41,514 bases of DNA from a virus, in the IMG/VR virus record IMGVR_UViG_3300020021_000023, positions 1-41,514 of that record; one strand, given 5' to 3'. Position numbers and translations under genes: made by a program. Positions 3,105 through 40,103 of the stretch are shown here, one piece after another. Position 1 is the first letter of the stretch; each line of letters starts with the position of its first letter. The notes below the pieces were generated by a model. That model did no database searches. It saw nothing but the letters and a program-made list of their open reading frames with translations, and was not told the DNA's origin.

Positions 3105-3181
3105 TGGTTTGGCCTACCCGTACTTTCGTTATCACCTCAGCCCGTGTGGGTTCGACATGGGAGGGTTTCAGTGGCGAATAG
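3104..3181 (+). CDS. Short coupled leader ORF inside element E1
   Basis: A 25-codon frame starts MVWPTR, contains VGSTW and ends at TAG 3179-3181. Its ATG overlaps the upstream TGA and its end overlaps the next gene's start. A second copy of the same arrangement lies at 12922-12987, sharing MVWPTR and VGSTW. It may be a translational-coupling leader rather than a functional peptide. Confidence 0.4.
   Translation: MVWPTRTFVITSARVGSTWEGFSGE
3108..3160 (+). repeat. Boundary element E1, forward
   Basis: Outer block TTTGGCCTACCC, inner block GTTCGACATGG. The inner block is followed at once by GAGGG, which serves as the ribosome binding site for GTG 3171. No clear inward partner was found downstream. 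Confidence 0.8.
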
Positions 3182-3704
3182 CAACAGCCTTTTCACGGTC
3201 GCATTGGTTGGCGGCGCGGCGTACTTGCTTTATAACTGGTGGACCTCGCAACCAGCGGCTACAACGACCACGGGAGGCGGAACCACCGGGGGCGGCACGA
3301 CCGGCGGCGGAACCACGGGCGGCGGCACTCCCACTCCACCAGCTACCCCCGCGACCACGCAATACACCGGGGCTGCTGATCTTCTGGCGAACGGCATCGC
3401 CCTGACGATCAAGCTGGCACAGATGACGGCGACGCCCAGCAGTCCGCCTCAACTGAACATCGACCAGTGGAATTATTACTACGCGCAGATCCCCGACGCC
3501 ACTCCGATTACGGGCGATCAGCTCAACGCCATGTTGGCGAAGGCGGGCGCAACCGGCGCGAATCGTAGCTACGTGCTCATGTCCCCTGGTCAGTACGTCG
3601 GCTTACTTCAATCGAGCGGAGTTCCGGGACTATCCGGTTATCTGAGAAACGGTGGCTTTGGTTATTACGGCCTCGCCGATCTCCGAAGGGCAGGGAGGCG
3701 CTAA
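3171..3704 (+). CDS. Membrane protein with Gly/Thr repeats
   Basis: The 177-residue protein (GTG start, GGGAGGG upstream within E1) starts with a hydrophobic segment (about 7-22, VALVGGAAYLLY) followed by NWW. Four tandem GGGTT units make a flexible linker at about 35-55. The rest is a mixed domain rich in Tyr, Gln and Ala (NQWNYYYAQIPD-like and YVLMSPGQYVGLL) with a basic end GRR. Its TAA overlaps the next ATG. Anchor, linker and globular domain suggest an exposed structural protein, but no family is recognised. Confidence 0.75.
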   Translation: MANSNSLFTVALVGGAAYLLYNWWTSQPAATTTTGGGTTGGGTTGGGTTGGGTPTPPATPATTQYTGAADLLANGIALTIKLAQMTATPSSPPQLNIDQWNYYYAQIPDATPITGDQLNAMLAKAGATGANRSYVLMSPGQYVGLLQSSGVPGLSGYLRNGGFGYYGLADLRRAGRR

Positions 3705-3886
3705 TGTACGTGCGCGGCGTTGGGCAAGCCGATCTCACAAGCTGGGGTTACATCTCCCCGTGCGGGCCGAATGGCGCGGCGGGCGCGGCGGCGGCGAGTA
3801 CTCCATCGGCGAATCAAGCGCTGGTCTGGGGCGGGTTTCTGGTGGCGGGGATTGTTCTCGTTGGACTGTTCGGAGGGAACCGGTAA
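3704..3886 (+). CDS. 60-residue membrane protein, MYVRGVGQ
   Basis: It starts MYVRGVGQ, has an Ala-rich middle and ends with one membrane helix (VWGGFLVAGIVLVGLF) and GGNR. ATG overlaps the upstream TAA and its own TAA overlaps the next ATG, so it is translationally coupled on both sides. Its size and single C-terminal helix recall small virion membrane proteins; function unknown. Confidence 0.75.
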   Translation: MYVRGVGQADLTSWGYISPCGPNGAAGAAAASTPSANQALVWGGFLVAGIVLVGLFGGNR

Positions 3887-4194
3887 TGGCGTACCTGCCT
3901 CAGTCCCAAATCGTGATGCCCGCGCGTGGCGGGATCTCCGCGCAGACCTTTGGAATCTCGGGGCGCTTCAATTCGATTGAGGGGCTTTCCGGTTTCGGGC
4001 AGGCGTGCCCGGCGGGGTTCACGATGGATTCGACTGGAACCTGTAGCCAGCCGAGCTGCGACTTTCCGTATGTGTTGAGCAACGGTGTTTGCGTAACGGG
4101 CGCATCGATAATTCCGGGAATCCCGGATTCCTTCGTTTACATCGGCGGCGTGGCGTTGTTGGCTGCGATTATTTTCGGGGGTATGCGGCGCTGA
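3886..4194 (+). CDS. Cys-containing membrane protein with GLSGFGQ motif
   Basis: The 102-residue protein has GLSGFGQ followed by a Cys-rich segment (ACPAGFTMDSTGTC, PSCDFPYVLSNGVC) that could form two disulfides. A single helix (FVYIGGVALLAAIIFGG) and MRR follow. The same order of GLGQ-like motif, Cys-rich segment and terminal helix is seen in neighbours. It is coupled by TAATG and TGATG overlaps. Confidence 0.75.
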   Translation: MAYLPQSQIVMPARGGISAQTFGISGRFNSIEGLSGFGQACPAGFTMDSTGTCSQPSCDFPYVLSNGVCVTGASIIPGIPDSFVYIGGVALLAAIIFGGMRR

Positions 4195-4544
4195 TGTACA
4201 TACGTGGCCTCGCACAGTTCGACTACGACACGAATCCGGGCGCGGAGTTCAATATCAACACGTCCGCGATTCCAACGGCGACGGCCACACCCTCCCAGAT
4301 CGATGCGGCGTTGAACGCGATTGCAAAGTCTTCGTGTGCGGGGATTTGGAACCCGGCTGACCATTCGTGTTCCGATACCGGCGGTCCGTCGACGTGTCCA
4401 TCGGGTTATGTTGCCTCAGGATTTACGTGTGTTGCGGCTCCTGCAGCGGGCGGCGGGGGCGGTTCGTCGGCAATGCCCAGTTGGGTGATTCCGGTAGCTG
4501 CGGCATTGGGCGGGCTCTTTCTGCTGATGGGGATGAGGCGCTGA
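4194..4544 (+). CDS. Cys-containing membrane protein, MYIRGLAQ
   Basis: The 116-residue protein starts MYIRGLAQ. It carries the same kind of Cys pairs as the previous gene (SSCAGIWNPADHSC, STCPSGYVASGFTC), a Gly linker, one helix (WVIPVAAALGGLFLLMG) and the tail MRR. It is a likely paralogue of the 3886 gene. It overlaps both neighbours by TGATG. Confidence 0.75.
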   Translation: MYIRGLAQFDYDTNPGAEFNINTSAIPTATATPSQIDAALNAIAKSSCAGIWNPADHSCSDTGGPSTCPSGYVASGFTCVAAPAAGGGGGSSAMPSWVIPVAAALGGLFLLMGMRR

Positions 4545-4855
4545 TGTACAACCGGGGCTTGGGTCAAGATTGCTCGGCTGGTCCGGCGTGCGCTTGGTAC
4601 GACAACGTTTATGCGACTCAGGGCTGTCTGAATTGGTACGCGGCGTGCGATCCGACGAACCCGTTTTACGTGCTCAACACGAAGGGCCTGATCGTTGGCG
4701 GCGCGGGGGTGCTCGGTCAAACAGCCGGTAGCGCGGTTGCGGCGGCGGGTAATAGTTTTCTGGGGCTCGATCCGAGTTCGGGTATTCCCACATGGATTTG
4801 GGCGGTTGGACTTGTCGGGTTGGGCGTGATGCTCATTCCCAGATTGGTGAAGTGA
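4544..4855 (+). CDS. Membrane protein, MYNRGLGQ
   Basis: The 103-residue protein starts MYNRGLGQ and has four Cys in the first 40 residues. An Ala/Gly stretch follows, then a C-terminal helix (WIWAVGLVGLGVMLI) with RLVK. It belongs to the same set of one-helix proteins as its four upstream neighbours and is coupled to the preceding gene by TGATG. Confidence 0.75.
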   Translation: MYNRGLGQDCSAGPACAWYDNVYATQGCLNWYAACDPTNPFYVLNTKGLIVGGAGVLGQTAGSAVAAAGNSFLGLDPSSGIPTWIWAVGLVGLGVMLIPRLVK

Positions 4856-4858
4856 AAT

Positions 4859-5287: not shown

Positions 5288-5295
5288 AGCTTTTT

Positions 5296-5544
5296 ATGTT
5301 GGCCTCGGTTAACAATTCGGGACGACGGGCGCTACCTGTTCGACAGGGTGGTGTGCGGGAATGCGGAGAACTTCAACCGCTGTTTGTGTTGGGCCGGATT
5401 CTCATCATGCTCAAAACCCTGACACCGGAAGAACGGGTCTACACGGTGCTCCGCGCCGAATCCCTTCTCAGGGTTTACGGTCACTACTTCCCTCCGCCGA
5501 CTGTCGAACATGATTACTCCGACGTGCAAGGAGGTGATCGATGA
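5296..5544 (+). CDS. Cassette protein between E2 and E3
   Basis: An 82-residue frame begins inside E2 as MLASVNNSG...LPVRQG and ends inside E3 as TVEH...GGDR. The body (LTPEERVYTVLRAESLLRVYGHYF) is predicted helical. Both termini are therefore encoded by the inverted boundary elements. Its stop overlaps the next start (ATGA at 5541). No family is recognised. Confidence 0.6.
   Translation: MLASVNNSGRRALPVRQGGVRECGELQPLFVLGRILIMLKTLTPEERVYTVLRAESLLRVYGHYFPPPTVEHDYSDVQGGDR
5299..5348 (+). repeat. Boundary element E2, forward
   Basis: TTGGCCTCGG...GTTCGACAGGG. Preceded by a T run and the ATG that opens the cassette ORF. Pairs with E3, about 150 bp downstream. Confidence 0.85.
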
Positions 5545-5550
5545 GGCCAA
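5501..5550 (-). repeat. Boundary element E3, reverse
   Basis: CTGTCGAAC...ATGAGGCCAA. The outer block contains both the stop of the cassette ORF and the ATG of the next gene. GGAGG lies inside the variable part, 10 nt before that ATG. Confidence 0.85.
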
Positions 5551-6290
5551 AAAGAAAGAACTCCTCAAACACCCTCTTCGATGCTGCCTACGATCTGGGA
5601 ACCCTCACCCCGGCAGGTCAGATCATCTCAACCGCAGGGCAGGCGTTTAAAAAGCACGTCAAGAACAAAGCGAAGGCAAAACACCGCCGTCGTCCGGTTC
5701 GCGTGGCAACCTCGCGCGGCAACAAAGGGAAGATCGAACGTTTCTACATCCGCACGAACCGAGGATCGCGGCGCAACCCGGAACAACCGGCAGGCGACCG
5801 CTATGAATACTTCCACGGGCGGAAAGCGGACGTCGACACGGACGTAACGGAAACGATCAAGTACCACGCGGTGCTATCGGGAATCGGCAAACTCGTATCA
5901 CTCGAAATCAAGGCGATCAACGGCAACCGGAAAGTGCTGCTCTCGAACTTCAAAGGCGCACTGCTCGCACAGGACGAAAAGGGCAAACAGCTTTACATCG
6001 TGGGCGGCGATCAGGCGGTAAGTCTCAAAGACTTCGGCATCGCGCAGCCGCATGAACTCGAAATTCTCGGGGCGCTCACGTGCGTGGTGTACTTCACGAC
6101 CAAAGACCACCTGAGGCCGGAAGACGGCGGCACGGCGAACTATAAACACAAGTTCGGCGACGGCGCGCGGACGTACAACTTCGGCAAGAACGGGACGCGC
6201 TTCCCCCTGGTCGGATACGACGTGCGAAACAAGATGCTTTCGATTCAGGGCGGGGACTACGACTTGCCAGCAGAGGGGATTGACGGATGA
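5541..6290 (+). CDS. Basic N-terminal DNA-binding-like protein, 249 residues
   Basis: The first 80 residues are strongly basic (KKHVKNKAKAKHRRRP) and contain RRNPEQP, resembling the NPG-type basic proteins elsewhere in the operon. The remainder (about 85-249) is a soluble mixed alpha/beta domain (LVSLEIKAINGNRKVLLSNFK, YIVGGDQAVSLKDFG). The start ATG lies in E3 and has GGAGG upstream. A nucleoid or core protein of the particle is plausible; no family is recognised. Confidence 0.75.
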   Translation: MRPKRKNSSNTLFDAAYDLGTLTPAGQIISTAGQAFKKHVKNKAKAKHRRRPVRVATSRGNKGKIERFYIRTNRGSRRNPEQPAGDRYEYFHGRKADVDTDVTETIKYHAVLSGIGKLVSLEIKAINGNRKVLLSNFKGALLAQDEKGKQLYIVGGDQAVSLKDFGIAQPHELEILGALTCVVYFTTKDHLRPEDGGTANYKHKFGDGARTYNFGKNGTRFPLVGYDVRNKMLSIQGGDYDLPAEGIDG

Positions 6291-6875: not shown

Positions 6876-7987
6876 TGAACTTCATCTTCATCAGCTCGCC
6901 CAGCTTCGAACCGTGGGACTGGACCAATCCCGACGTGCAGGGAATCGGCGGTTCTGAAACCTCGCATATAGAAATGTCGAATCGCCTTTCTGATCGAGGA
7001 CACCAGGTCCACTCCTACGCGCCTACGCCGTTTGAAGACCGGCGCGTCAACCCGCACGGCGTGACCTGGGAGCAATGCAAGTTCGCGGACGCGAAGAAAG
7101 ACGGCGTGTGGATCGTCTACCGCGACCCGACCGTAATCGACGGAATCCCGGAAGGTCAACCGATTTGGCTCATCTGCCAAGATGTCGACTACCCGACGTT
7201 GACGGAAGCGCGGGCGAAGCGACTCACCCGAATCGTGGGCCTCTGCGAAACCCACGGGCGCTATCTGCGCTCGCGCTATTCGTTTGCAGAGGACAAGGTG
7301 TGCATTTCCTCGAACGGCATCAAGTCGGAAGAAATCGCGCGAGCGCTGCTCGATCCCCCGGCGCGCAACCCGAAACGGCTCATGTACGCATCGAGTCCCG
7401 ACCGCGGACTGCTGTACCTCGCGATGATCTTCCAGCGGGCGCGTGAACTGATGCCCGATCTGGAGTTGCACGTCTACTACGGCTTCGACAATATCGAAAA
7501 GATCATCGACAAGTTCCCCGGTGTCCGCAAAAAGACCAACGAAATTCGGAAGATGATGGACCAGCCGGGCCTGGAGTTCCACGGGCGCATGGGACAGCCG
7601 GAACTGATCCGCGAATGGCTGAAGGCCGGCATCTGGTGCCATCCGTCCAGCTTCGCCGAAACGTCATGCATCACCTGCATGGACGCACAGGCCTTGGGCG
7701 CGATCCCGATCACAACGCCAACGTGGGCGATCGGCGATAACGTCGAACACGGCGTGTTCATCGAAGGCGATCCCTACAACTGCAAGCTGACGCGGGCGCG
7801 GTACGTGCTCGAGCTGATGAAGCTCGTGAATGACCCGATCCGGCAGGAAGGCATTCGCGAAAAGATGATGCCTTGGGCGCAAGCTCATTTCGGCTGGGAT
7901 CACTTCGTCGACCAGTGGGAAGACTGGGCGCGCATAGACACTGGCGCTGTGAAACCGTCCTCACGCGTCAAGGAGGTCCACGCTTGA
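6875..7987 (+). CDS. GT-B glycosyltransferase (GT4-like)
   Basis: The 370-residue protein starts at GTG overlapping the upstream TAG. Its N-terminal domain has GGSETSHIEMSNRLSDRGHQV, the usual acceptor-side motif of GT4 enzymes. The C-terminal domain has RLMYASSPDRGL, LEFHGRMGQPEL and PSSFAETSCITCMDAQALG followed by GAIPITT, the nucleotide-sugar region with the E-x7-E-like pattern. It probably transfers a sugar from a nucleotide donor to a virion or host surface target. It is followed by a methyltransferase and a second transferase in one coupled block, pointing to a surface-modification module. Confidence 0.85.
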   Translation: MNFIFISSPSFEPWDWTNPDVQGIGGSETSHIEMSNRLSDRGHQVHSYAPTPFEDRRVNPHGVTWEQCKFADAKKDGVWIVYRDPTVIDGIPEGQPIWLICQDVDYPTLTEARAKRLTRIVGLCETHGRYLRSRYSFAEDKVCISSNGIKSEEIARALLDPPARNPKRLMYASSPDRGLLYLAMIFQRARELMPDLELHVYYGFDNIEKIIDKFPGVRKKTNEIRKMMDQPGLEFHGRMGQPELIREWLKAGIWCHPSSFAETSCITCMDAQALGAIPITTPTWAIGDNVEHGVFIEGDPYNCKLTRARYVLELMKLVNDPIRQEGIREKMMPWAQAHFGWDHFVDQWEDWARIDTGAVKPSSRVKEVHA

Positions 7988-8523
7988 ACGATTGCCTCCG
8001 AGATCCGCTTATCTATAACGGGCAGTTTCCCTTCCAGGCGAAGTACGCAACCGGGCGCGTGCTCAACGTCGGCTGCAACTCGGACGGAGCGGGGTTCCGG
8101 CAACGGGGCGGGGTGAACATCGACTTGTTCCGCAAAGACGACCACACCGGCTGGGATCTCCCGGTCGACGCACAGGCCGACGCGCGGCGGCTCCCGTTCG
8201 GCAAGAATTCGTTCGATTCGGTTGTGCTGGGAGAAATCCTCGAGCACATGCAGACGCACGATGCGGTTGCTTCCTTGCGCGAAGCGAAAACGGTGTTGAA
8301 ACCGGGCGGGCGAGTGGTCGCAACCATTCCGCATGACGACCGCGGCGGGCCGGATCACATCCCGGAATACGCTCCCGGCATCGCGGCCTATCACTACCGC
8401 GAAATCACGCGGTGCGAGTTTTTCGATTGGATCAAGGCGGCGGGGCTCAAGCTGATCGTCTGGGGAAAAATCGTTCACGTGTGGGGCAAAGAGGGAACGG
8501 GGATTGTCGCGGTGTGCCCATGA
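7984..8523 (+). CDS. SAM-dependent methyltransferase (class I)
   Basis: The 179-residue protein starts with TTG, overlapping the upstream stop (TTGA), with AAGGAGG 7 nt before it. Motif I is VLNVGCNSDGAGF, an acidic residue follows in NIDLF, and FDSVVLGEILEHM with KPGGRVVATIPHD are standard class I features. The family methylates small molecules, sugars or proteins; with glycosyltransferases on both sides, sugar or glycan methylation is the best inference. It is slightly shorter than typical stand-alone members. Confidence 0.8.
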   Translation: MNDCLRDPLIYNGQFPFQAKYATGRVLNVGCNSDGAGFRQRGGVNIDLFRKDDHTGWDLPVDAQADARRLPFGKNSFDSVVLGEILEHMQTHDAVASLREAKTVLKPGGRVVATIPHDDRGGPDHIPEYAPGIAAYHYREITRCEFFDWIKAAGLKLIVWGKIVHVWGKEGTGIVAVCP

Positions 8524-8696
8524 TGAATCTCGACAAAATGCGCGCGCTTGCGTTAAGGGACACGTGCCCGATGTGTTTTGGAGAACTCGATACAGGCTGG
8601 GAATGCAACAACTGCGGTTACGACGCAAAGCCGCTTGTCGATGGTGAAAAGCTAATCCGGGGACCGATGGCAGGAGAGGCCAATTCAACATGCTAG
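8520..8696 (+). CDS. Double-CxxC zinc ribbon protein
   Basis: The 58-residue protein has CPMCFGELDTGWECNNCGYD, a four-Cys zinc ribbon. It is a close paralogue of the protein at 16569-16730, which shares TCP-CFGELDTGWECNNCGYDA. The C-terminus AGEANSTC is encoded by element-like sequence E4. The start overlaps the methyltransferase stop (ATGATG). The role is unknown; such ribbons often bind nucleic acids or protein partners. Confidence 0.75.
   Translation: MMNLDKMRALALRDTCPMCFGELDTGWECNNCGYDAKPLVDGEKLIRGPMAGEANSTC
8634..8683 (-). repeat. Boundary element E4, reverse, unpaired
   Basis: CTTGTCGATGG...GAGAGGCCAA. No forward partner was found upstream, since the preceding bases are inside the methyltransferase. 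It may be a cassette remnant. Confidence 0.55.
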
Positions 8697-9412
8697 ACCG
8701 AACCAAAAACATCGGAACTATCGGCTACATGGGCGGACTGATGAGCCTCCCCGAGCCGTTCGCCTGGTCCTTCGCGAATATGCTGCTGTTCACGCATGAA
8801 GCCGTTTGCCAACCGGGGGAACGGATCAAACCGGCGCGTACGGGCTATTCGTTCCATTCGGCGGGCCGGAACGACCTGGTGTCGCAAATCTCCGGGGACT
8901 GGCTGCTGATGCTCGACACGGATTTAGAGTTCGACCCGGATTTCGCAGCGCGGCTGATTACGATGTTCGAACGGTACAAGCTCGACATCGTGACCGGGCT
9001 CTACGCCTACAAGAATCACCCGGAAGTGGCAGTAGTCCACATGCTGAACGAAGAAACCGGACGGCATGAACCGATTTCGAAGTGGGATGAATCGGTCGAA
9101 TTGTTCGAGATCAGCTCCGCGGGCGCGGGGTGCCTGTTGGTCCGCAAATCCGTTTACGAACGGATCGTAACCGAACTTTATGAACCGCCGTTCCAGGTAA
9201 TCGGGGCCTACGGCGAAGACCACTCATTTTTCATGCGGGCGCGCAAGCTCGGCATCAAAGCGTATTGCGCGTGGAAGGTCCAGGCCGCGCATCTGGGCTT
9301 CAAAGCCGTCGAGCACAAGCCCGACCACTCGCTATCGATCTGTAACGAATACACGGTGTCCGGCTACGGCGCCGCAAGGCAAGGAGAGATTCAACATGGC
9401 AATGCAAGTTAG
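8690..9412 (+). CDS. GT-A glycosyltransferase (GT2-like)
   Basis: The 240-residue protein has GDWLLMLDTDLEFDPDF, a DxD metal and nucleotide-sugar site, and GEDHSFFMRARKLG, the usual catalytic ED region of GT2-like enzymes, then HLGFKAVEH. GRNDLV near residue 65 fits the acceptor or donor loop. It is coupled to the zinc ribbon gene. Together with the 6875 and 7984 genes it forms a glycan-modification block in the middle of the virion operon. Confidence 0.85.
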   Translation: MLDRTKNIGTIGYMGGLMSLPEPFAWSFANMLLFTHEAVCQPGERIKPARTGYSFHSAGRNDLVSQISGDWLLMLDTDLEFDPDFAARLITMFERYKLDIVTGLYAYKNHPEVAVVHMLNEETGRHEPISKWDESVELFEISSAGAGCLLVRKSVYERIVTELYEPPFQVIGAYGEDHSFFMRARKLGIKAYCAWKVQAAHLGFKAVEHKPDHSLSICNEYTVSGYGAARQGEIQHGNAS

Positions 9413-9754: not shown

Positions 9755-9859
9755 ATGTTGGCCTCGCCGAACAGTCCGGGACATCGAGATATGAAGGCTC
9801 GACAGTGTAGGATGTCTCGGATTTCGGCGCGGTGGGCACAACCAATTCAAGGAGGCTGA
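9755..9859 (+). CDS. Cassette leader ORF starting in E5
   Basis: A 34-codon frame opens as MLASPNSPGH inside E5 and stops 3 bp before the next ATG, with GGAGG in its last codons. It may encode a peptide or simply feed ribosomes into the 9863 gene. Confidence 0.35.
   Translation: MLASPNSPGHRDMKARQCRMSRISARWAQPIQGG
9758..9806 (+). repeat. Boundary element E5, forward
   Basis: TTGGCCTCGCCG...GCTCGACAG. The first ten bases of the outer block (GGCCTCGCCG) match its partner E6. Confidence 0.85.
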
Positions 9860-9862
9860 TAC

Positions 9863-10096
9863 ATGGCGGACGAACAGAAACCTGAAGTGCCGGAATTCGC
9901 GCAACCCCTGATCGACTATCTGGAAATGCAGTGGCATCCAGATCCGGCGCGGCATCCGGAGCAAGCCCAAAAGCTAATGGCTCTCCGCAGGGCGCTCGCT
10001 TTGCCCGATCCGCCAGAAGAAACGGCCCCTGTCGATGAAACGATAGATGACCTAGCCGCAAATTCCGGCGAGGCCAACAACCAGGAAGGAGAATAG
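9863..10096 (+). CDS. Small acidic cassette protein
   Basis: The 77-residue acidic protein (MADEQKPEVPEFAQPLIDYL...) is predicted helical, with EMQWHPDPARHPEQAQKLMAL. Its C-terminal ANSGEANNQEGE is read through E6. A GGAGG lies 8 nt upstream. It is the main gene of the E5-E6 cassette; function unknown. Confidence 0.65.
   Translation: MADEQKPEVPEFAQPLIDYLEMQWHPDPARHPEQAQKLMALRRALALPDPPEETAPVDETIDDLAANSGEANNQEGE
10029..10077 (-). repeat. Boundary element E6, reverse
   Basis: CTGTCGATG...CGGCGAGGCCAA. Pairs with E5 to bracket about 320 bp. Translated in frame as part of the 9863 protein. Confidence 0.8.
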
Positions 10097-11864: not shown

Positions 11865-11919
11865 TTGTCGGCCTCATCGGGCGTTCGCGTTCTGAGGGGC
11901 CTCCATCGTTCGACATGGG
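11865..11919 (+). repeat. Boundary element E7, forward (empty cassette, left end)
   Basis: TTGTCGGCCTCATCG...GTTCGACATGG. Its inner end GTTCGACATGGGCGGT is complementary, with one bulged T, to the inner end of E8 only 11 bp further on. Confidence 0.85.
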
Positions 11920-11940: not shown

Positions 11941-11990
11941 CTGTCGAACCATCGGTATCCCATCTGGCCGGGATCTACGGGTAGGCCAGA
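11941..11990 (-). repeat. Boundary element E8, reverse (empty cassette, right end)
   Basis: CTGTCGAACC...GGGTAGGCCA. With E7 it forms a cassette of about 126 bp with no room for a gene. The variable part GGCCTACCCGTA (reverse complement) matches E1. Confidence 0.8.
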
Positions 11991-30243: not shown

Positions 30244-30297
30244 CCTGGTCGAACGCTCTCAACTCCCCGCGCAGCCGTCAGGCCGAATGAGGCCAAA
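30244..30297 (-). repeat. Boundary element E30, reverse, TGGTCGAACG variant
   Basis: CCTGGTCGAACGCTCTC...CCGCGCAGCCG...AATGAGGCCAAA. Left end on the minus strand without a separate right end. Confidence 0.8.
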
Positions 30298-30712
30298 GAC
30301 TCGAAATCCTACTCAACTCCTCCTGTGAACAGTGCGAAGAACTCATAATCACAATCACGTCCCCCACTCTGGTACCGGACTGCGCAATCACCCCGGCGGG
30401 CAATTCGAGCACGGCTGACAGCTCCGGCGGAATCCGCGTATTGAAGTGGCACGTAGGCGGGGCGTCGGAAAGCGCTTTCTGAACCCGGTGGGTCAACATG
30501 TCGATAAAAAGCACGTCGATGTTCATGGACATCTGGACCGTGTGAATCGCGTTGCACCCTTCGAAGAACAGTCCGGCACCTGGCTGGAACTCTTGGGCGC
30601 TCACTCCGATCAGGCCGTTTAGCTTCTCTTCGCGCGTCGATGCAATGTCGGCGTGGGTTGCCAGAATCGAGGTTCTGGTTGCATTGGTGATTCTGAGAGT
30701 GGGCCGTGTCAT
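30278..30712 (-). CDS. DUF192-family protein
   Basis: 144 residues. LNGLIGVSAQEFQPGAGLFF, then HTVQMSMNIDVLFIDMLTHR, APPTCHF and AVLELPAGVIAQSGTRVGDV follow the DUF192 pattern (RGLM...GMLF...FWMKNT...IDLIFID...VLELPAG...GD). DUF192 proteins are small beta domains of unknown biochemical role, often exported in bacteria. There is no signal peptide here. Its stop lies in E30; its last 45 residues were copied into the 29792 gene. The start overlaps the previous stop (ATGA). Confidence 0.75.
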   Translation of the reverse strand: MTRPTLRITNATRTSILATHADIASTREEKLNGLIGVSAQEFQPGAGLFFEGCNAIHTVQMSMNIDVLFIDMLTHRVQKALSDAPPTCHFNTRIPPELSAVLELPAGVIAQSGTRVGDVIVIMSSSHCSQEELSRISSLWPHSA

Positions 30713-30993
30713 TTTGGGTTGGCCTCCGGTCTTCCTTGTTCGGCTTCGGGCGGCTGTCGGCGTCCGACCAGGTCGGGGACTAGATTCTTCCCAACGAAGA
30801 GGCGCTTGAACCGTTCGCCGTCCACCTTGACGAGGATTCGCTTGTCCGTGACTTTTTCCACGATTCCCTTCAATGTCGGCATGGTCCTGTGCATGACTCG
30901 CATTCCGGGGAGAAATACTGGTCCTGGTCGAACGCTTTCAGGCTCACGTGCAGAACCCGCGCCGACTGAGGCCAAAACATCATCGTTTGCCAT
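30709..30993 (-). CDS. KOW-like small protein with translated element at both ends
   Basis: 94 residues from ATG 30993 (AGGA 8 nt upstream). Residues 6-24 (VLASVGAG-SAREPESVRPG) are read through E32. The core TLKGIVEKVTDKRILVKVDG-ERFKRLFVGKNLV looks like a KOW-type beta motif. The end DLVGRRQPPEAEQGRPEANPK is from E31. A shorter start at ATG 30903 would skip E32. Candidate RNA- or protein-binding adaptor. Confidence 0.65.
   Translation of the reverse strand: MANDDVLASVGAGSAREPESVRPGPVFLPGMRVMHRTMPTLKGIVEKVTDKRILVKVDGERFKRLFVGKNLVPDLVGRRQPPEAEQGRPEANPK
30719..30772 (+). repeat. Boundary element E31, forward, class B
   Basis: TTGGCCTCCGGTCTTCC...GCGTCCGACCAGG. Translated in reverse sense as LVGRR...GRPEAN. 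Pairs with E32. Confidence 0.85.
30923..30976 (-). repeat. Boundary element E32, reverse, TGGTCGAACG variant
   Basis: CCTGGTCGAACGCTTTCAGG...GACTGAGGCCAAAA. Nearly the same as E49 in its inner 28 bases. Confidence 0.85.
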
Positions 30994-31225: not shown

Positions 31226-31564
31226 TTAGCCTCTTGGGTTGGCCTCACCGGCCTGTTGTTCTGGCGCGTCGGGGGCTGAGGGTTCGACATGGAGGGCTTC
31301 CTGGTTCTCGGAAATAGCGCTCTCGATCTCATCGCGGGTCAGGGCTCCATACCTCACGTCCGGTCCGCCCCACACTTGTCTGCTAAGCTTGCGAAGTTCG
31401 AGAATATTCAAGAGTCCCTGGCTGTTCCTTATCAGTTGGGCTTCCAGTCTCTTACAGCGCTCGCACTCCGGCTGTCGAGCACTCTCCCCTTCCCGCGAAG
31501 CATCCGATTGTGGCGAGGCCAAACCATAAGATTCAAACCCTGCCCGGCAACCATCGCAGATCAC
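31226..31564 (-). CDS. Zinc-finger-like cassette protein with internal element
   Basis: 112 residues. MICDGCRAGFESYG holds one CxxC; then residues from E34 (LASPQSDASREGESARQP) separate it from ECERCKRLEAQL, the second CxxC. A helical region and the E33-encoded tail VEPSAPDAPEQQAGEANPRG follow. The element thus sits between the two halves of a probable zinc site. Confidence 0.7.
   Translation of the reverse strand: MICDGCRAGFESYGLASPQSDASREGESARQPECERCKRLEAQLIRNSQGLLNILELRKLSRQVWGGPDVRYGALTRDEIESAISENQEALHVEPSAPDAPEQQAGEANPRG
31239..31292 (+). repeat. Boundary element E33, forward
   Basis: TTGGCCTCACCGGCCTG...GTTCGACATGG. Translated in reverse sense as VEPSAPDAPEQQAGEA. Pairs with E34. Confidence 0.85.
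31472..31523 (-). repeat. Boundary element E34, reverse
   Basis: CTGTCGAGC...GATTGTGGCGAGGCCAAA. In-frame as LASPQ...ESARQP within the 31226 protein. Confidence 0.85.
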
Positions 31565-31914: not shown

Positions 31915-32294
31915 TTTGTTTTGGCCTCCAATTGGCTATCTGGCTCCGTGGGGTTATTGTTCGTCCGACCAGGAAGGGTTTCGCGGCCCTCCGCTTTGGC
32001 GATGGCTACGGTGGCGGGGCGGCACATATCACACAAGTTTCCCCTGGGATGCCTAGGTTCGCCAGGGGTCTTGCCGCATCCTGCGCATTTGATTGCCCTC
32101 AGCGCTTGCAGTAGCTCCGGCGCGGCGGCGATCAGATTCGCTCTGTAGTGATATTTAATCCAAGAAACGGGATCGCTGTATTTCTCAACGCGCGATGTAG
32201 TCGCTAAGATTTTTCCCTGTTCATCACGAATGCAGGCGCCCGCTTCATCGTGTTCACCAGTGAATCCCGATATTACCCATTTTTCTGTGCTCAC
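31911..32294 (-). CDS. LIAAAPELL-type phage protein, 127 residues
   Basis: GTG start with AGGAGATG upstream. KWVISGFTGEHDEAG, NLIAAAPELLQALRAIKCAG and CGKTPGEPRHPRGNLCDMC (possible zinc site) are followed by AIAKAEGR. The LIAAAPELL...AIAKAEG frame is a common small phage protein type of unknown role. The tail LPGRTNNN...SQLEAKTK comes from E36. The next gene (32291) is its tandem relative. Confidence 0.7.
   Translation of the reverse strand: MSTEKWVISGFTGEHDEAGACIRDEQGKILATTSRVEKYSDPVSWIKYHYRANLIAAAPELLQALRAIKCAGCGKTPGEPRHPRGNLCDMCRPATVAIAKAEGRETLPGRTNNNPTEPDSQLEAKTK
31919..31973 (+). repeat. Boundary element E36, forward, class B
   Basis: TTGGCCTCCAATTGG...TTCGTCCGACCAGG. Right end for the 31911 gene. 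Its partner is the half-element E37. Confidence 0.8.
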
Positions 32295-32877: not shown

Positions 32878-32930
32878 TTTGGCCTCACCGGGTACTGGTC
32901 TGCGCGGGTGGGGTTGTGGGTTCGACATGG
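32878..32930 (+). repeat. Boundary element E38, forward
   Basis: TTTGGCCTCACCGGG...CTGCGCGGGTGGGG...GTTCGACATGG. Centre and inner block match partner E39. Confidence 0.9.
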
Positions 32931-33226: not shown

Positions 33227-33279
33227 CATGTCGAACCCGCACCCCTCACGCGCAGCCGTCAAGGCCCGTGAGGCCAAAC
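33227..33279 (-). repeat. Boundary element E39, reverse
   Basis: CCATGTCGAACCC...ACGCGCAGCCGTC...CGTGAGGCCAAA. Good example of the class A consensus. Confidence 0.9.
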
Positions 33280-33285: not shown

Positions 33286-33519
33286 CTACCCGCCGCCCAA
33301 CACCCACTGATCCACCGTCTGCCAGATCAACCCGGAAGGCAGAATAAACGGCTTTTTCAAAATTACCAACGTCAACTTCACCCCGTCGTAGTTGTACTTC
33401 AGATCGATCCCCTTGAAGCTCAACACGCCTGCGGTACCCTCCGGTAAGGCGACACCCTGTAGTAAGAGACGGGAGCGTAAGGCGTCGAACTGCTGGGGTG
33501 TGAGGGAGTAGATTTTCAT
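33286..33519 (-). CDS. Small beta-rich protein, 77 residues
   Basis: MKIYSLTPQQFDALRSRLLL, then GVLSFKGIDLKYNYDGVKLT and LVILKKPFILPSGLIWQTVD. The order 'LTPQQFDALR...DL.Y.Y.G..L...I..KP' is a known style of small phage protein without assigned function. Start overlaps the upstream stop (ATGA). Confidence 0.65.
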   Translation of the reverse strand: MKIYSLTPQQFDALRSRLLLQGVALPEGTAGVLSFKGIDLKYNYDGVKLTLVILKKPFILPSGLIWQTVDQWVLGGG

Positions 33520-33824
33520 TTGGCCTCCGGTCCCGCACCGCTGCTTCGGTCGGCGGTATCGCGTCCGTCCAGGACTGGCGCTAGCGGATTCCCAACCGGC
33601 AAGCCGGCATACTCGCACAACTCGGCGATTCGCCGAATCAACTCAGGACCGTTTTCAGCCCGGAACAGGGCGCAGGGCACCAGTTCTCCCGACGTGTCAT
33701 CCCATTCCCTCATCAGTGGATGCCGGATGCCGACAAAGAATTTCTTGCAGCCGGGTTGCTGGCATTCACACGGCTGTACCAGAAACTCGGGACCCGGCTC
33801 GCGTTTACGCCTCTTTATTTTCAC
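33516..33824 (-). CDS. Basic cassette protein ending GPEAK, 102 residues
   Basis: GTG start with GGGAGGGG upstream. CECQQPGCKKFFVGIRHP suggests a small metal site, followed by an acidic/helical part (LIRRIAELCEYAGLPVG). Tail from E40. Unknown. Confidence 0.65.
   Translation of the reverse strand: MKIKRRKREPGPEFLVQPCECQQPGCKKFFVGIRHPLMREWDDTSGELVPCALFRAENGPELIRRIAELCEYAGLPVGNPLAPVLDGRDTADRSSGAGPEAK
33519..33573 (+). repeat. Boundary element E40, forward, class B
   Basis: TTTGGCCTCCGGTCCC...GCGTCCGTCCAGG. Encodes LDGRDTADRSSGAGPEAK in reverse sense. Its partner E41 is class A, so classes can mix. Confidence 0.85.
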
Positions 33825-33833: not shown

Positions 33834-33882
33834 CTGTCGAACCCACGGCTCCCACGCGCGGACTCAAGTCCGGTGAGGCCAA
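33834..33882 (-). repeat. Boundary element E41, reverse
   Basis: CTGTCGAACCCACGGCTCCC...GTCCGGTGAGGCC. With its flanks it is nearly identical to E43, 300 bp away. Internal stem GGACT-CAA-GTCC. Confidence 0.95.
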
Positions 33883-33894: not shown

Positions 33895-34131
33895 TCATTT
33901 GTCGGCCTCGCCGGGATGTGCGGCTTGGACCGGCTCCGAAGTCTCGACAGTTGGCTTTTCGGTGATTTCCAGATGGAAACCGTAGACCCGATCGTTGAAT
34001 AAGACTTCAACCGGTAGCCCGGTCAGCCTTTCGAGATCGAACGCTTGCCGGCAGACGTCGTGCAAAAAACTGCCGTTGTTCGCCCGGACCTGTACCAACT
34101 CTATCTCGCTGAATTGCTTATGTATGCTCAC
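33895..34131 (-). CDS. Small cassette protein ending PGEADK, 78 residues
   Basis: GTG start, GGGAGGG upstream from E43. MSIHKQFSEIELVQVRANNG, then CRQAFDLERLTGLPVEVLF and HLEITEK, an alpha/beta mix. Its C-terminus (VETSEPVQAAHPGEADK) is from E42. The gene is bracketed by E42 and E43. Confidence 0.65.
   Translation of the reverse strand: MSIHKQFSEIELVQVRANNGSFLHDVCRQAFDLERLTGLPVEVLFNDRVYGFHLEITEKPTVETSEPVQAAHPGEADK
33899..33950 (+). repeat. Boundary element E42, forward
   Basis: TTGTCGGCCTCGCCGGG...GTCTCGACAG. Pairs with E43. The 15 bp between E41 and E42 is one of the shortest cassette gaps. Confidence 0.85.
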
Positions 34132-34514
34132 AAACCCTCCCTGTCGAACCCACGGCTCCCACGCGCAGACTCAAGTCCGGTGAGGCCAAAATATCGCAGT
34201 CGAAACATCCGGATCAACCCGTACCGATCCAGCCGATGCACCAACCAAAACCGTTTTCCAAGCGTGTGATGCGATTTCGGAAGCCCCCGCTCATGATGCA
34301 CCCGGCAGAACGGCAGCACTTCCCAGCCGTCGCACAACTGCGAAAGCCCACGCATCCCCACGTGACAAACCTGCACCCACCTACGCGACCCACAGACCGC
34401 GCACGGCTGCTCTCTGATCCAATCCCAGTACGCGAGGATCTCCGGCGGCACGACGTAGCGGCGCGGCTTGCGCTTGAGCCAGGAACGGCGGAGGGGTGTG
34501 TAGCGGGCGATCAT
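34128..34514 (-). CDS. HNH/DUF968-like protein with element-encoded tail
   Basis: 128 residues. PCAVCGSRRWVQVCHVGMRG, then LPFCRVHHERGLPKSHHTLG and KRFWLVHRLD follow the pattern of small phage HNH-like proteins (CxxC...H, then C..HH..G...H). Zinc coordination and a beta-beta-alpha nuclease fold are inferred. The end RYFGLTGLESARGSRGFDR is read through E43 in another frame, so the natural C-terminus appears replaced. Start ATG overlaps the upstream stop. Confidence 0.75.
   Translation of the reverse strand: MIARYTPLRRSWLKRKPRRYVVPPEILAYWDWIREQPCAVCGSRRWVQVCHVGMRGLSQLCDGWEVLPFCRVHHERGLPKSHHTLGKRFWLVHRLDRYGLIRMFRLRYFGLTGLESARGSRGFDREGL
34141..34190 (-). repeat. Boundary element E43, reverse
   Basis: CTGTCGAACCCACGGCTCCC...AGTCCGGTGAGGCCAAA. 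Nearly identical to E41. Supplies GGGAGGG for the 33895 gene. Confidence 0.95.
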
Positions 34515-34696
34515 TCGGTGCCTGCGCACGCGCCGATCCACAGCAACGCTATTGCTGCGGCGGAAAAGAAAACACAGCCTAGAATGTTCCAGCCGCCTCC
34601 CCAGGAGATCGCGGTCGGCATAATCCATCCGATGTTTCCTATTAGGATTCCCACCACGACTCCGAACACTAGGCCGATAACCCGCTCTCGTTTCAC
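34511..34696 (-). CDS. Two-helix membrane protein, 61 residues
   Basis: GTG start 12 nt after the inner block of E44. Two hydrophobic segments (VIGLVFGVVVGILIGNIGWI and ILGCVFFSAAAIALLWIGA) separated by a short polar loop. Likely a small inner-membrane protein. The end overlaps the 34128 start (ATGA). Confidence 0.65.
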   Translation of the reverse strand: MKRERVIGLVFGVVVGILIGNIGWIMPTAISWGGGWNILGCVFFSAAAIALLWIGACAGTE

Positions 34697-34953
34697 AATT
34701 CCCCATGTCGAACCCGGCACCCCCCACGCGCAGCCGTCGAGGCCGGTGAGGCCAACCCCAAAAGCTTCCTTCCCCACGCCGTTACCGGCTTTCCATCCCG
34801 TACATGCACCACACATTCCCCCTGTGGCCGATCTCCGCTTTCGTTCCATCCGTAGGAACCTGATCCCTTTCCACCTTCGCTTGCCGGGCCGTTTCCGAGC
34901 TGATGCGCACGTCCGCCGAAACGCTGCACTGAGAATCTGATGGGTTCGTTCAT
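34693..34953 (-). CDS. Small protein with element-encoded C-terminus (LASPAS...VRHGEL)
   Basis: 86 residues. The body MNEPIRFSVQRFGGRAHQLG is followed by CVVHVRDGKPVTAWGRKLLG. The last 20 residues (LASPASTAARGGCRVRHGEL) come from E44. In this case the left element end supplies a C-terminus rather than an N-terminus. Start is ATG after GAGG in E45. Confidence 0.65.
   Translation of the reverse strand: MNEPIRFSVQRFGGRAHQLGNGPASEGGKGSGSYGWNESGDRPQGECVVHVRDGKPVTAWGRKLLGLASPASTAARGGCRVRHGEL
34703..34756 (-). repeat. Boundary element E44, reverse
   Basis: CCATGTCGAACCCGGC...ACGCGCAGCCGTCGAGG...GGTGAGGCCAA. Class A consensus; no own right end. Confidence 0.9.
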
Positions 34954-35183
34954 GGTTTGGCCTCGTTACGGGTTGCGGCTTGGACGGGCGCGGCACCGTC
35001 GACAAGCGGCGATTCATTCACGGTCAACATCAATTCTTCCCTGACTGCGAAGATGTTCACGGGGGCCTTGAATTTCTGCCCGACCTGAATAGCCCACTCT
35101 TCGGCCATTTCCTTTGTGGGGCAGAATGTTTGCACGGTTCGCCCGTCTTCTTTAACGCCAACAACTACAGCGCGGAACTTCAT
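34950..35183 (-). CDS. Small cassette-end protein ending RNEAKP, 77 residues
   Basis: MKFRAVVVGVKEDGRTVQTF, then FCPTKEMAEEWAIQVGQKF and VNIFAVREELMLTV. The KFRAVVVG...W-tail style recalls small phage beta/alpha proteins. Tail from E45. Start ATG overlaps the upstream stop. Confidence 0.65.
   Translation of the reverse strand: MKFRAVVVGVKEDGRTVQTFCPTKEMAEEWAIQVGQKFKAPVNIFAVREELMLTVNESPLVDGAAPVQAATRNEAKP
34956..35004 (+). repeat. Boundary element E45, forward
   Basis: TTTGGCCTCGTTACGGG...GGCACCGTCGACAAG. Right end without a clear left partner upstream of the 35180 gene. Confidence 0.75.
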
Positions 35184-35559: not shown

Positions 35560-35613
35560 TTTGGCCTCCGGTCCGGCTTAGTGGCTTCGATCAGTCTGGG
35601 AGCGTCCGACCAG
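35560..35613 (+). repeat. Boundary element E46, forward, class B
   Basis: TTTGGCCTCCGGTCCGG...AGCGTCCGACCAGG. Pairs with E47 (class A). Partly translated as LVGRSQTDRSH. Confidence 0.85.
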
Positions 35614-35829
35614 GATTGAGTATTCCAACCGCTTGATTGCTTCCTTCAGATGGATAACCTCTTCCATCGATTCAGCCCACTCCGCACCGGTCTGGCATTT
35701 CGCAATATCCAGCACCTTGGAAATCCTGCCTTTCAGCCAAAAGATTACATCCGCAGTTTGCAGTTCGGCGACAGCCATCCGAAGGCTCTCCATCGCACGC
35801 GACATATCGGCGGTTATCGTTTCGCACAT
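35578..35829 (-). CDS. Helical cassette protein ending LVGRSQTDRSH, 83 residues
   Basis: MCETITADMSRAMESLRMAV, then ADVIFWLKGRISKVLDIAKC and WAESMEEVIHLKEAIKRLEY. Predicted helix-rich; unknown. Start overlaps the previous stop (TAATG). Confidence 0.65.
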   Translation of the reverse strand: MCETITADMSRAMESLRMAVAELQTADVIFWLKGRISKVLDIAKCQTGAEWAESMEEVIHLKEAIKRLEYSILVGRSQTDRSH

Positions 35830-36212
35830 TACTGCACCCTCCCGGCGCCCGCCGTCTTCGCAGGCGCGAAAATGTCATCCGGCAGATATTCTTCCATCGT
35901 GTCCTCTAAAATCTGATTGCGCTGTTTTGTCGACGGCTTGCGATATCCCGACCGGTCAACCCGTGGGGCAATAGCCGCATGTCGAACACGCCCGCCTTGG
36001 AGCGAAGCGCGATCGTCCGATGAGGCCAAAATGAACGCATCTAAGAATCTTGCCAACCTCCGTACCCCAGTCAGCCACAACACCCCAGCACCAAGGGACA
36101 CGGCAAGAAAGAAGCCAAGCCCGACAAAAGCGGCAGGGCGTCCGCCGGCTGAAATCACGATTCCCGTTATCAGCACCGAACCGGCGAGAAAGGCGAGTGA
36201 GTTTTTAATCAT
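35829..36212 (-). CDS. Membrane protein with internal element-encoded region, 127 residues
   Basis: Start at ATG 36212 (AGGAG 9 nt upstream). Two helices (LAFLAGSVLITGIVISAG, AAFVGLGFFLAVSLGAGVLW) are followed by RLARFLDAFI, then LASSDDRASLQGGRVRHA read from E47, then a basic region (RVDRSGYRKPSTKQRNQILE). It looks like an upstream gene fused in frame to the left end of the E46-E47 cassette. Confidence 0.65.
   Translation of the reverse strand: MIKNSLAFLAGSVLITGIVISAGGRPAAFVGLGFFLAVSLGAGVLWLTGVRRLARFLDAFILASSDDRASLQGGRVRHAAIAPRVDRSGYRKPSTKQRNQILEDTMEEYLPDDIFAPAKTAGAGRVQ
35977..36030 (-). repeat. Boundary element E47, reverse
   Basis: GCATGTCGAACACGCCC...GCGCGATCGTCCGATGAGGCCAAA. In frame as LASSD...GRVRH in the 35829 protein. 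Confidence 0.85.
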
Positions 36213-36708: not shown

Positions 36709-37199
36709 TCCACCTCCAGGGGTCCAAGATGTACCGGGTTATCCTGGCGTTCGTCGCAGAGTCCGCATAGACCTTCGGGGCCTAGTACTTTGGGACGGAA
36801 ACGGTGCCGCGGTTCTTTTTTGTCGGCCTCGGCATGGTGTGCGGCTTGTTCGGCTCGGGTTTGCTCGACATAGGCCGCTATCTTTCTGTCCAGGGCGTGG
36901 ATTTCATCGCGATCCCACCAACCGCACAGCGCACACTGGAATGTGTTTTTCAGGGATTCGAACCTGTGTGGAATCCTCCGGTAGTCTTCCCACGTCGGCA
37001 TTCCTGGTCGAACGCTTTCAGGCTCACGCGCAGGGCTCGAACTGACTGAGGCCAATGCATAGGCCTTGTCACCCTCTACGGCTCGGACATCCTTTTCACC
37101 ATCGACACGTGGGAAGGGTGCCTCGGATATCCACTTTTTGTACTTCTCATCCGACAGCACGAAGCAACCGCGCAAAGCCCACCAAACCCAACGAAGCAT
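36705..37199 (-). CDS. CxxC protein with a cassette in frame
   Basis: 164 residues. The first 47 (LRWVWWALRGCFVLSDEKYK...) lead into YALASVSSSPAREPESVRPG from E49. Then follow MPTWEDYRRIPHRFESLKNT and CALCGWWDRDEIH, the E48-encoded VEQTRAEQAAHHAEADKK, and finally HRFRPKVLGPEGLCGLCDER with PVHLGP. The two HRF...CxLC...H units are alike, one inside and one outside the E48-E49 bracket. The whole frame is open, so either a cassette entered a gene in frame or the gene was built by duplication. Confidence 0.6.
   Translation of the reverse strand: MLRWVWWALRGCFVLSDEKYKKWISEAPFPRVDGEKDVRAVEGDKAYALASVSSSPAREPESVRPGMPTWEDYRRIPHRFESLKNTFQCALCGWWDRDEIHALDRKIAAYVEQTRAEQAAHHAEADKKEPRHRFRPKVLGPEGLCGLCDERQDNPVHLGPLEVE
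36820..36873 (+). repeat. Boundary element E48, forward
   Basis: TTGTCGGCCTCGGCATG...TTGCTCGACATAGG. Pairs with E49 within one ORF. Confidence 0.8.
37003..37054 (-). repeat. Boundary element E49, reverse, TGGTCGAACG variant
   Basis: CCTGGTCGAACGCTTTCAGG...GACTGAGGCCAA. Translated as LASVSSSPAREPESVRPG, very close to the E32 translation. Confidence 0.85.
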
Positions 37200-37212: not shown

Positions 37213-37266
37213 TCCTGGTCGAACGCTCTCAGCTCGACGCCTCAAAACCGCCGACTGAGGCCAAAG
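37213..37266 (-). repeat. Boundary element E50, reverse
   Basis: TCCTGGTCGAACGCTCTC...GACTGAGGCCAAAG. Left end with no separate partner; the small 37242 ORF ends inside it (FGLSRRF). Confidence 0.8.
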
Positions 37267-38710: not shown

Positions 38711-38991
38711 AGGCCGGGCTGTACAAAGCGATCGATAAGAAGTACGCGGAGATGGAAGCGTCGATCAAGCTGCGTTTCCGGGAAGCTCACATGCGGATAG
38801 AGCGGCTTGAAAAGCAGGTCGGTAATCTCGCCCTCGAATTGGTCCTCATTAAGCAAGACTTCGAACACCACACACATAAAGTGTCCGGGTACGTCCAAGC
38901 TGGAGAAACGGTTTTAGAAACCGCTCCACCGGAGCGACAGTCTGTGAATGTCGAACGAGCTCGACCCCATGCACAGACTCAAGCCCGCTGA
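38707..38991 (+). CDS. Coiled-coil protein, 94 residues
   Basis: MKAGLYKAIDKKYAEMEASI, then HMRIERLEKQVGNLALELVL, a heptad-like coil. The tail NVERARPHAQTQAR comes from E51 and the stop is the TGA of TGAGGCC. It may work with the initiator upstream. Unknown family. Confidence 0.65.
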   Translation: MKAGLYKAIDKKYAEMEASIKLRFREAHMRIERLEKQVGNLALELVLIKQDFEHHTHKVSGYVQAGETVLETAPPERQSVNVERARPHAQTQAR

Positions 38992-38999
38992 GGCCAAAA
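38947..38999 (-). repeat. Boundary element E51, reverse
   Basis: ATGTCGAACGAGC...CAGACTCAAGCCCGCTGAGGCCAAAA. The left partner would be the degenerate block near 38690. Confidence 0.8.
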
Positions 39000-39000
39000 C

Positions 39001-39037
39001 AAAAAGCCCTCCCAGCTTTTCACGGCTGAAAGGGCTT
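39001..39037 (-). terminator. Rho-independent terminator of the 39074 gene
   Basis: On the minus strand AGCCCT...CAGC...GCTG...AGGGCT forms a stem followed by TTTTTG. It lies about 40 bp past the stop of the 39074 gene and may also slow plus-strand transcription from the initiator operon. Confidence 0.7.
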
Positions 39038-39073
39038 GAAAGGTTCCAAATGAATTATCCGCTTGTCAGCTTA

Positions 39074-39580
39074 TCACGTCACAAGCTCAACCGCTTTTTC
39101 CTCCGCGTATTTCCCCGGCTCCTCCAAATCGTTTCGCATTCCGGTGAAGACTTCGATGAGAATACATTCCAGGGCCGATCGTACGATGTCCTCGTGGGCT
39201 ACCATACCTTCGGCGGCATGATCCAGTGCGGCAACGGTATCGACTAACCTCTGTGAAAGGTTTCGACATTGCGCAGTCAGCGACTCATCCGAGAACCGCG
39301 CGTTCAACGTCTGCTGGTGAACCTCCCAGCGTTTCCTGTCGCGCTCCGCTTTTAGTTCCGGGTCAGTGGTTCTGAAGTTCCGCAGGAATAACCAGCCGCA
39401 ATAGAACAGGGCTTGCGCGTCCATGGCTCGGGCTACGTCGGGATGCTTTTCCTGGAAATGCTGAGACAGTCCTTCGATATACTTGCGCAGCCGTGCGTTC
39501 GGTTCGCCGATGACTTGTAAGCGGGGTCCTGTGAACTTCTGTCCGCAGAAGCATGTGGTGATGTCCGCGAGTTCGTTCAT
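39074..39580 (-). CDS. C2H2-like zinc protein, 168 residues
   Basis: Residues 9-45 contain TTCFCGQKFTGPRLQVIGEP...HFQEKH, a Cys-x-Cys...His-x4-His arrangement. A long helical part follows (RKRWEVHQQTLNARFSDESL, ALDHAAEGMVAHEDIVRSAL). Start ATG 39580 follows the class B end E52 and overlaps the previous stop (TAATG). Unknown role. Confidence 0.65.
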   Translation of the reverse strand: MNELADITTCFCGQKFTGPRLQVIGEPNARLRKYIEGLSQHFQEKHPDVARAMDAQALFYCGWLFLRNFRTTDPELKAERDRKRWEVHQQTLNARFSDESLTAQCRNLSQRLVDTVAALDHAAEGMVAHEDIVRSALECILIEVFTGMRNDLEEPGKYAEEKAVELVT

Positions 39581-40044
39581 TATGGTTTGGCCTCCGGTCT
39601 TCCGTCGTTCTGCGATTCGGCGGGGTCGCGTCCGACCAGGTCAAGCGCTGCTTGCACGACGGCCAAACGCTTTTCAGCGTCCCTCAATTGCTGCTTATAC
39701 AACGGCAGCACCATGTTCGCGGCCGCTTTCATGTCCGGACTTTCGCCGACAAAAAGCAGCGAGGTAGCTTCGATGGATGCTCGCAGGCTCTCCACTCTTT
39801 CTGTCGCTTCGTAAAGATCATCCGGACTGGTTGCCGGGCTTGCCTGCGAATCCCTCAACCTCTGTTCGAATTCGCAGCACAGATAATTTCTGATCGCGAT
39901 TTGCAGTGGAGCGATTCCCAAACCCGGAAAGACGCGCGGTAGAATCGCGCACAGTTCGGACGCTAACGTCTCAGCGGCTTCGATATCTTCGCGCAGATCA
40001 TCGTCGGAAGGCACCCAATAATACGGATCATCTGGCGGAAACAT
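39580..40044 (-). CDS. Class B cassette protein, 154 residues
   Basis: MFPPDDPYYWVPSDDDLRED, a helical middle (FEQRLRDSQASPATSPDDLY, SLLFVGESPDMKAAANMVLP, LYKQQLRDAEKRLAVVQ) and the E52 tail LVGRDPAESQNDGRPEAKP. GGAGGGATTCC from E53 precedes ATG 40044. The gene fills the E52-E53 cassette. Unknown. Confidence 0.7.
   Translation of the reverse strand: MFPPDDPYYWVPSDDDLREDIEAAETLASELCAILPRVFPGLGIAPLQIAIRNYLCCEFEQRLRDSQASPATSPDDLYEATERVESLRASIEATSLLFVGESPDMKAAANMVLPLYKQQLRDAEKRLAVVQAALDLVGRDPAESQNDGRPEAKP
39586..39640 (+). repeat. Boundary element E52, forward, class B right end
   Basis: TTTGGCCTCCGGTCTTCC...GCGTCCGACCAGG. Same class as E13 and E27; partner E53 is the matching left class. Confidence 0.9.
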
Positions 40045-40053
40045 GGAATCCCT

Positions 40054-40103
40054 CCTGTCGCTGGTGAACCGTCAACGTCTCGCCCGATTGTGACGAGGCC
40101 AAA
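40054..40103 (-). repeat. Boundary element E53, reverse, class B left end
   Basis: CCTGTCGCTGGTGAACCGTC...GATTGTGACGAGGCCAAA. Nearly identical to E26 over the inner 20 bases. Confidence 0.9.

Follow-up and report, generated by a model that had tools for sequence, protein, structure and literature searches.

What does a repeat of about 50 bp do at junction after junction of a viral genome? The question is raised by a 41,514-bp IMG/VR virus record (IMGVR_UViG_3300020021_000023), analysed at its full length and called the window here, in which an earlier note had described a family of about 53 boundary elements placed at gene junctions, with two conserved blocks and a variable middle. The family is real. 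The exact outer block, TTGGCCTC/GAGGCCAA, is found at 41 places when both strands are counted, compared with 0.96 expected from a third-order Markov estimate. When at most two mismatches are allowed, the window has 42 two-block matches, TTGGCCTC-(about 33 nt)-GTTCGACA; 60 dinucleotide shuffles average 0.75 and never exceed 3, i.e., the blocks are not equally common in random sequence of the same composition; a slightly different two-block rule gives 43 copies versus 5 in the reversed sequence. About seven further degenerate copies (13821, 14911, 22534, 22947, 28142, 29315, and 40102) bring the total near 53. The placement at junctions also holds, with 50% of the outer site edges falling no more than 20 bp from the end of a called gene versus 3.8% of random points, and selection or repeated spread of the family, as the note had proposed, is supported. 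The picture of the copies, however, changes. The two blocks stand, but the middle is not wholly variable, since about 20 bp in there is a third block, (G)CTTCG(CG); and the repeats are not scattered singles but mostly inverted pairs around a small open reading frame (ORF) or a short spacer. That the inverted pairs delimit slots, that the two ends of a slot are unlike, and that sister families unrelated in sequence share the architecture all went unseen in the note. We hold with moderate confidence that the copies are protein-recognised DNA sites that frame, in pairs, exchangeable single-gene slots, the recognition being specific to each viral lineage.

A site is about 49 bp long, with TTGGCCTC as the outer block, CTTCG(CG) in the middle and the inner block CGTTCGAC[C/A] 41-42 bp in, extended by AGGAG in most class consensus sequences; the spacing of 41-42 bp between outer and inner blocks is close to four helical turns. 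Adjacent sites alternate in orientation in 248 of 320 neighbouring pairs (126 +-, 122 -+, 39 ++, 33 --) counted in the window and eight relatives (nine contigs). The TTGGCCTC ends point outward, one lying a few bases past a core gene's stop codon and the other a few bases ahead of the next gene's start codon (GAGGCCAAAYCATG), and this order (stop, site, inverted site, start) is kept across genomes. Because the outer blocks abut the stop and the next start, the site pair occupies the space separating one core gene from the next. In the F1/F2 slot of the window, the left element (5299-5345, plus strand) is answered by a right element (5502-5550, minus strand) that overlaps the start of the gene at 5541-6290. 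The inner blocks face one small ORF or almost nothing. Paired units range from 105 to 1300 bp, and slot interiors go down to 9 bp, gene-free spacers being 9-42 bp and many gene-free units measuring about 140 bp with a 42-bp interior; the window has a gene-free slot between 11868-11915 (plus) and 11942-11989 (minus), with a 26 bp interior. The two ends of a slot differ: site length is divisible by three at 32 of 45 cargo 3′ ends and at only 2 of 45 cargo 5′ ends, a count limited to the 45 of 84 slots in which a cargo direction could be assigned.

Comparison with related genomes shows that the slots persist while their cargo turns over. A pattern scan and protein-anchored scans of IMG/VR found the same site family in nine contigs besides the window (G001-G006, G012, L257, and G014), which share, whole or in part, a common core gene order (F0-F6-F7-F3-...-F10-F2-F11-F8-F9-F12-F4-F19-F5-F20-F26-F27-F21). 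At the F9/F12 junction the window carries a 166-bp Zn-ribbon gene (8524-8689, plus strand, between the genes at 7984-8523 and 8690-9412) with a site at its end, the 3′ (E) element at 8636-8683 (minus); in L257, about 80% identical to the window overall, this junction is empty, with stop and start overlapping in ATGCTAG. The junction is also empty in G002, G006, G012, G014, and G016-G019, and it is occupied in G000, G001, and G004, the inserts of G001 and G004 being different. Similarly, F3/F14 is empty in G006 and G012 and occupied in G001, G005, and G014. Interiors across orthologous slots range from 9 to over 600 bp with the sites retained; for example, among six genomes the F10/F2 interior measures 9, 24, 30, 42, 261, or 338 bp and no cargo there is homologous, and of 26 same-slot genome pairs overall only 2 have detectably homologous cargo. 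When the window is compared with L257, homology ends at or next to sites and resumes beyond them in three places, and two slots hold different cargo. The slots themselves are inherited, because site middles (similarity 0.485 within a slot versus 0.380 between slots) and site lengths (agreement 0.62 versus 0.35) agree more within than between slots. One cargo gene occupies two slots of G005 and is found also in G014 and, in part, elsewhere in G004. The Zn-ribbon cargo genes of two different window slots (8521-8638 and 16567-16684) are 77% identical.

Conservation acts at the DNA level. AGGAG is kept even at the cargo 3′ end, where the strand it lies on is wrong for translation; the same holds for TTGGCCTC at the cargo 5′ end, where its GAGG is on the wrong strand. 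Added to this, there is no conserved fold and the 3′ site is read in three reading frames. RNAalifold gave a near-zero consensus in most classes and energies close to those of shuffles (RNA parameters, single sites only), and secondary structure was rejected as the recognised feature. A conserved C-terminal peptide tag was likewise considered and rejected, because the 3′ site is translated in three frames across slots (VEK..NEAK, LVERS.., PGRT.., SWSNA..) and no single peptide is kept. In L257 the 3′ end of core gene F8 itself holds a site (about 3531-3579, the protein ending VETGVEAKA*), as if a core gene had captured a slot end.

The design is not limited to one site sequence. Three relatives with the same core (G017, G018, and G019) are without TTGGCCTC sites and carry two other families of the same design, which makes three lineage-specific families. 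One, TTGGCGAC-42-CGTTCCCC, has 38 copies in G018 and 29 in G019 versus 3 and 1 in reversed-sequence controls; the other, TTGGCGCTCTTCTC-42/45-GCGTTCGC(GC), has 28 copies in G017 versus 0 in its reversed control, its outer block being given either as TTGGCGCTCTTCTC or as TTGGCGCTC (TTGGCGCTC-42/45-GCGTTCGC). Both have copies in both orientations, with 36-60% of outer edges within 20 bp of gene ends versus 3.5-5.3% of random points, and they are paired less strictly (17-19 of 26-34 neighbours alternate). G016 and G021 have no strong site family. In the more distant relatives L270, L284, and L269, other short words are enriched (GCCATCGC, CGAGCTCG, and ACCGGAGC), which could be further boundary families.

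Outside this clade the sites were not seen. A stricter 22-base pattern matches only six of 2.9 million contigs of the viral collection, all of this clade, and none of the 297 genomes of an Acidobacteriota sample. Copies in bacterial genomes were rejected: among the matches listed, their number is of the order expected by chance (16 fixed bases, 9-step gap, 257 Gb) and they form no cluster like those of the viral contigs. The note's author knew of no family with these blocks, and this is borne out by Rfam covariance models, with 0 matches at the gathering threshold, and by a gene-free unit that has no DNA match when compared with 50,697 phage records and 72,556 plasmid records. Most window proteins among those scanned have no family match, two that were checked against known phages have no protein match there, a protein scan with window 15182-16390 found no relative, and the predicted structures of F28 and F5 are too poor for use. 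A related provirus with F27, F20, F5, F1, F2, and F0 in order is present in 1 of 396 Acidobacteriota genomes, and no enriched site family was found in it. Its locus (L333; G282:C10:84,900-98,100) is an integrated, diverged relative of the window's virus group. An Acidobacteriota host for the window is therefore plausible, supported by this provirus, though without proof.

How might such slots work? In the mechanism we propose, the copies would be DNA recognition sites used as inverted pairs, each pair framing a slot between two core genes that holds one small gene or a short spacer. A protein or a pair of proteins, with a specificity that differs between viral lineages, would recognise the paired sites, and recombination there would exchange or insert the DNA between them, such that accessory genes turn over and core genes and slot positions persist. 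We infer that a dedicated recombinase, encoded by the virus, its host or a helper, carries out the exchange and binds at the blocks; the chemistry stays at this level because no mover enzyme and no consistent target duplication were found. Serine recombinase was tried as the mover. It is a core gene of the larger genomes (58-kb group), and the PHROG invertase, integrase, and transposase matches in relatives are all this one enzyme; it was rejected, since G000 and G003 lack it, whereas G016 and G021, the two genomes with no strong family, have it. Among the window proteins scanned (part of the window ORFs), none belongs to a recombinase family.

Several points weigh against paired exchange sites. 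No recombinase was identified in two 41-kb terminal-repeat genomes (G000 and G003), and target-site duplication is not consistent (5-mers, 8 versus 5.4 expected; 6-mers, 3 versus 1.4; permutation). A larger share of homology breakpoints than of random points is found 15 bp or less from a site (20.6% versus 7.7%, all pairs), but this clustering is partly confounded and is taken as supporting evidence only, because gene ends are natural breakpoints. Some inserts, as at F9/F12, have one site only, and some gene-junction inserts, as at F2/F11, have none. Most cargo points the same way as its neighbours, which requires selection or directional insertion, and cargo ORFs are in many cases short and score weakly as coding sequence. 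The F2/F11 inserts without sites are small genes in L244 and L254 (346 bp) and L249 (202 bp), with a common right end, GGNGAGGCGCGGGACTGCTG|ATGA; possibly they are another boundary class.

The alternative that survives best, although we consider it unlikely, is that the sites are terminal inverted repeats of non-autonomous single-gene transposons similar to miniature inverted-repeat transposable elements (MITEs), the whole unit hopping with a transposase supplied in trans. The inverted ends, the unit size of 105-1300 bp and the presence or absence at orthologous junctions all suit such elements, and 6-bp direct repeats (AATGGG and AATATG), at two F3/F14 insertions only, are suggestive. A hopping unit does not explain, however, why slots are inherited while their interior changes or why the two ends belong to different length classes; no target duplication of constant length is seen overall, no transposase was found, and the family is confined to one viral clade, with none in the 297 Acidobacteriota genomes. 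Nor did the viral collection matches or those genomes yield an autonomous parent with the same ends, although a diverged parent or an unsampled host could escape this search.

A slightly less likely alternative takes the copies as lineage-specific operator or architectural sites (stoperator-like, or used in packaging or condensation), cargo turnover being ordinary mosaicism at gene ends. Many copies per genome, the position at gene junctions and a lineage-specific consensus are what such sites would show. Operators would not be expected to form inverted pairs whose outer blocks abut both flanking genes, to stand on two sides of gene-free interiors of 9-42 bp, or to lie within the 3′ coding end of a cargo gene.

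More doubtful still are boundary linkers, i.e., short common sequences at which phage annealing recombination swaps modules by homology. Homology does break at sites and some 3′ ends are alike within one genome; but just two or three short blocks are conserved while the middle has diverged, and linkers need neither a fixed spacing of about 42 bp nor inverted pairing nor a lineage-specific sequence switch. Translation or RNA-processing signals, with GAGG as a Shine-Dalgarno sequence and long-range pairing of the two ends, are very improbable: GAGGCCAAAYCATG does put a Shine-Dalgarno about 7 nt ahead of the next start and AGGAGG precedes cargo starts, but each block is also conserved at that end of the slot at which it could serve no purpose in translation, there is no consensus fold, the energies equal those of shuffles, and no matched end-to-end changes were seen by inspection. 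Each of these explanations fits less well than paired exchange sites on at least one test.

Integrons (attC/attI) carry small single-gene cassettes that turn over at fixed recombination sites, and the window's slots resemble them in both respects. They differ in having two inverted, apparently unfolded sites per slot instead of folded attC, in showing no integrase gene among the window ORFs scanned and in forming no tandem array from one attI. Among the precedents that had been suggested for the family, MITEs and the start-associated sequences (SAS) and extended SAS (ESAS) of mycobacteriophages fail on features that were tested. Ultra-small mycobacteriophage mobile elements (MPMEs) are of two related types, MPME1 being 439 bp, and their insertion adds a 6-bp sequence (PMC3029335); they, like MITEs, resemble the window's units as small mobile elements whose ends are inverted and which lie in viral genomes, but in the window's family the cargo differs almost every time, slots pass on by inheritance, and each site of about 49 bp has three blocks. 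The 13-bp SAS of Cluster K phages stand directly upstream of starts, nearly all in one orientation, and ESAS repeats have a subcluster-specific consensus (PMC3203893). Many short repeats at gene boundaries are common to both systems; however, the SAS/ESAS consensus is GGGATAGGAGCCC, and the sites here have other blocks, are paired, take both orientations and lie also at gene 3′ ends. Cluster A stoperators are many asymmetric repressor sites that stop transcription, spread across the phage genome as the putative protein sites are here, but no description has them as inverted pairs around exchangeable genes (PMC9283540). Searches of the open-access literature, the scope leaving aside subscription papers and preprints, found no account of paired, lineage-specific slots.

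The remaining elements of the window are as follows (+ and - give the strand). An element at 3109-3157 (+) lies past the stop of the gene at 1956-3104 and ahead of that at 3171-3704. Left and right (E) elements enclose cargo 9863-10096 (9758-9804, +; 10030-10077, -), cargo 13001-13369 (12927-12975, +; 13318-13365, -, with a TAATG junction to the next gene) and cargo 18825-19313 (18777-18825, +; 19271-19319, -), and two more such pairs stand at 16408-16457 (+) and 17166-17213 (-) and at 17864-17913 (+) and 18171-18218 (-). A degenerate outer block alone is seen at 13821-13828 (+). A degenerate left element of type D faces a right element of type C at 14911-14957 (+) and 15123-15173 (-) and again, around cargo 28201-28572, at 28142-28188 (+) and 28515-28565 (-). 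The left element at 22186-22234 (+) has a degenerate right partner (22475-22534, -); the left one is degenerate at 22947-22995 (+), whose cargo is C5 DNA methylase-like and whose right element is at 23910-23958 (-); and around cargo ORF 26232-26576 (left element 26172-26220, +) the right element has a degenerate inner block (26522-26569, -). A short variant lies at 29315-29354 (+), followed by elements at 29763-29810 (-) and 30247-30296 (-).

Minus-strand cargo has its 3′ element on the plus strand and its 5′ element on the minus strand: 30719-30769 and 30926-30975 (cargo 30709-30903), 31239-31289 and 31473-31522, 33520-33570 and 33835-33882 (cargo 33516-33824), 33902-33949 and 34142-34189 (cargo 33895-34131, back to back with the preceding slot), 35561-35611 and 35980-36029 (cargo 35578-35829), and 39587-39637 (type C) and 40056-40102 (type D; cargo 39580-40044). 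The DUF968-like gene at 34128-34727 has a 5′ element at 34706-34755 (-). Further elements lie at 31921-31970, 32879-32927, 34957-35004, and 36823-36870 (all +) and at 33229-33277, 37006-37055, 37217-37264, and 38949-38997 (all -).

Other observations concern the rest of the window. A direct terminal repeat (2-139 and 41377-41514; 138 bp, 98% identical) supports a complete or circular record, and G003 has one of 127 bp. Segments 29802-29934 and 30288-30420 are duplicates, 83% identical, beside a DUF192-like gene (30278-30712). Several small proteins with a C-terminal membrane segment, many starting MYVRG.GQ-like, are encoded at 1448-4855 and 28572-29162 by genes in tandem with stop/start overlaps; they are possibly a virion membrane protein family.

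How accessory genes enter and leave phage genomes exactly at gene borders is an old question, still open, in which conserved boundary sequences are set against illegitimate recombination followed by selection (PMC3029335). In the present viruses explicit sites, paired and specific to the lineage, mark the borders, with turnover of the cargo between them, so that the question becomes directly testable. Since the sites stay while small genes come and go, the genome looks as if it were built with labelled docking slots at which genes can be swapped. Tentatively, and with less confidence than we have in the paired sites themselves, we suggest that gene exchange may run genome-wide in this Acidobacteriota-associated viral clade, with dozens of slots per genome, each between two inverted recombination sites, and that mutually incompatible site codes of sister lineages may restrict it to viruses with a common code. 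If a site-specific enzyme is behind the slots, viruses would have an integron-like system of their own, and orthogonal tools for cassette exchange could perhaps be drawn from it.

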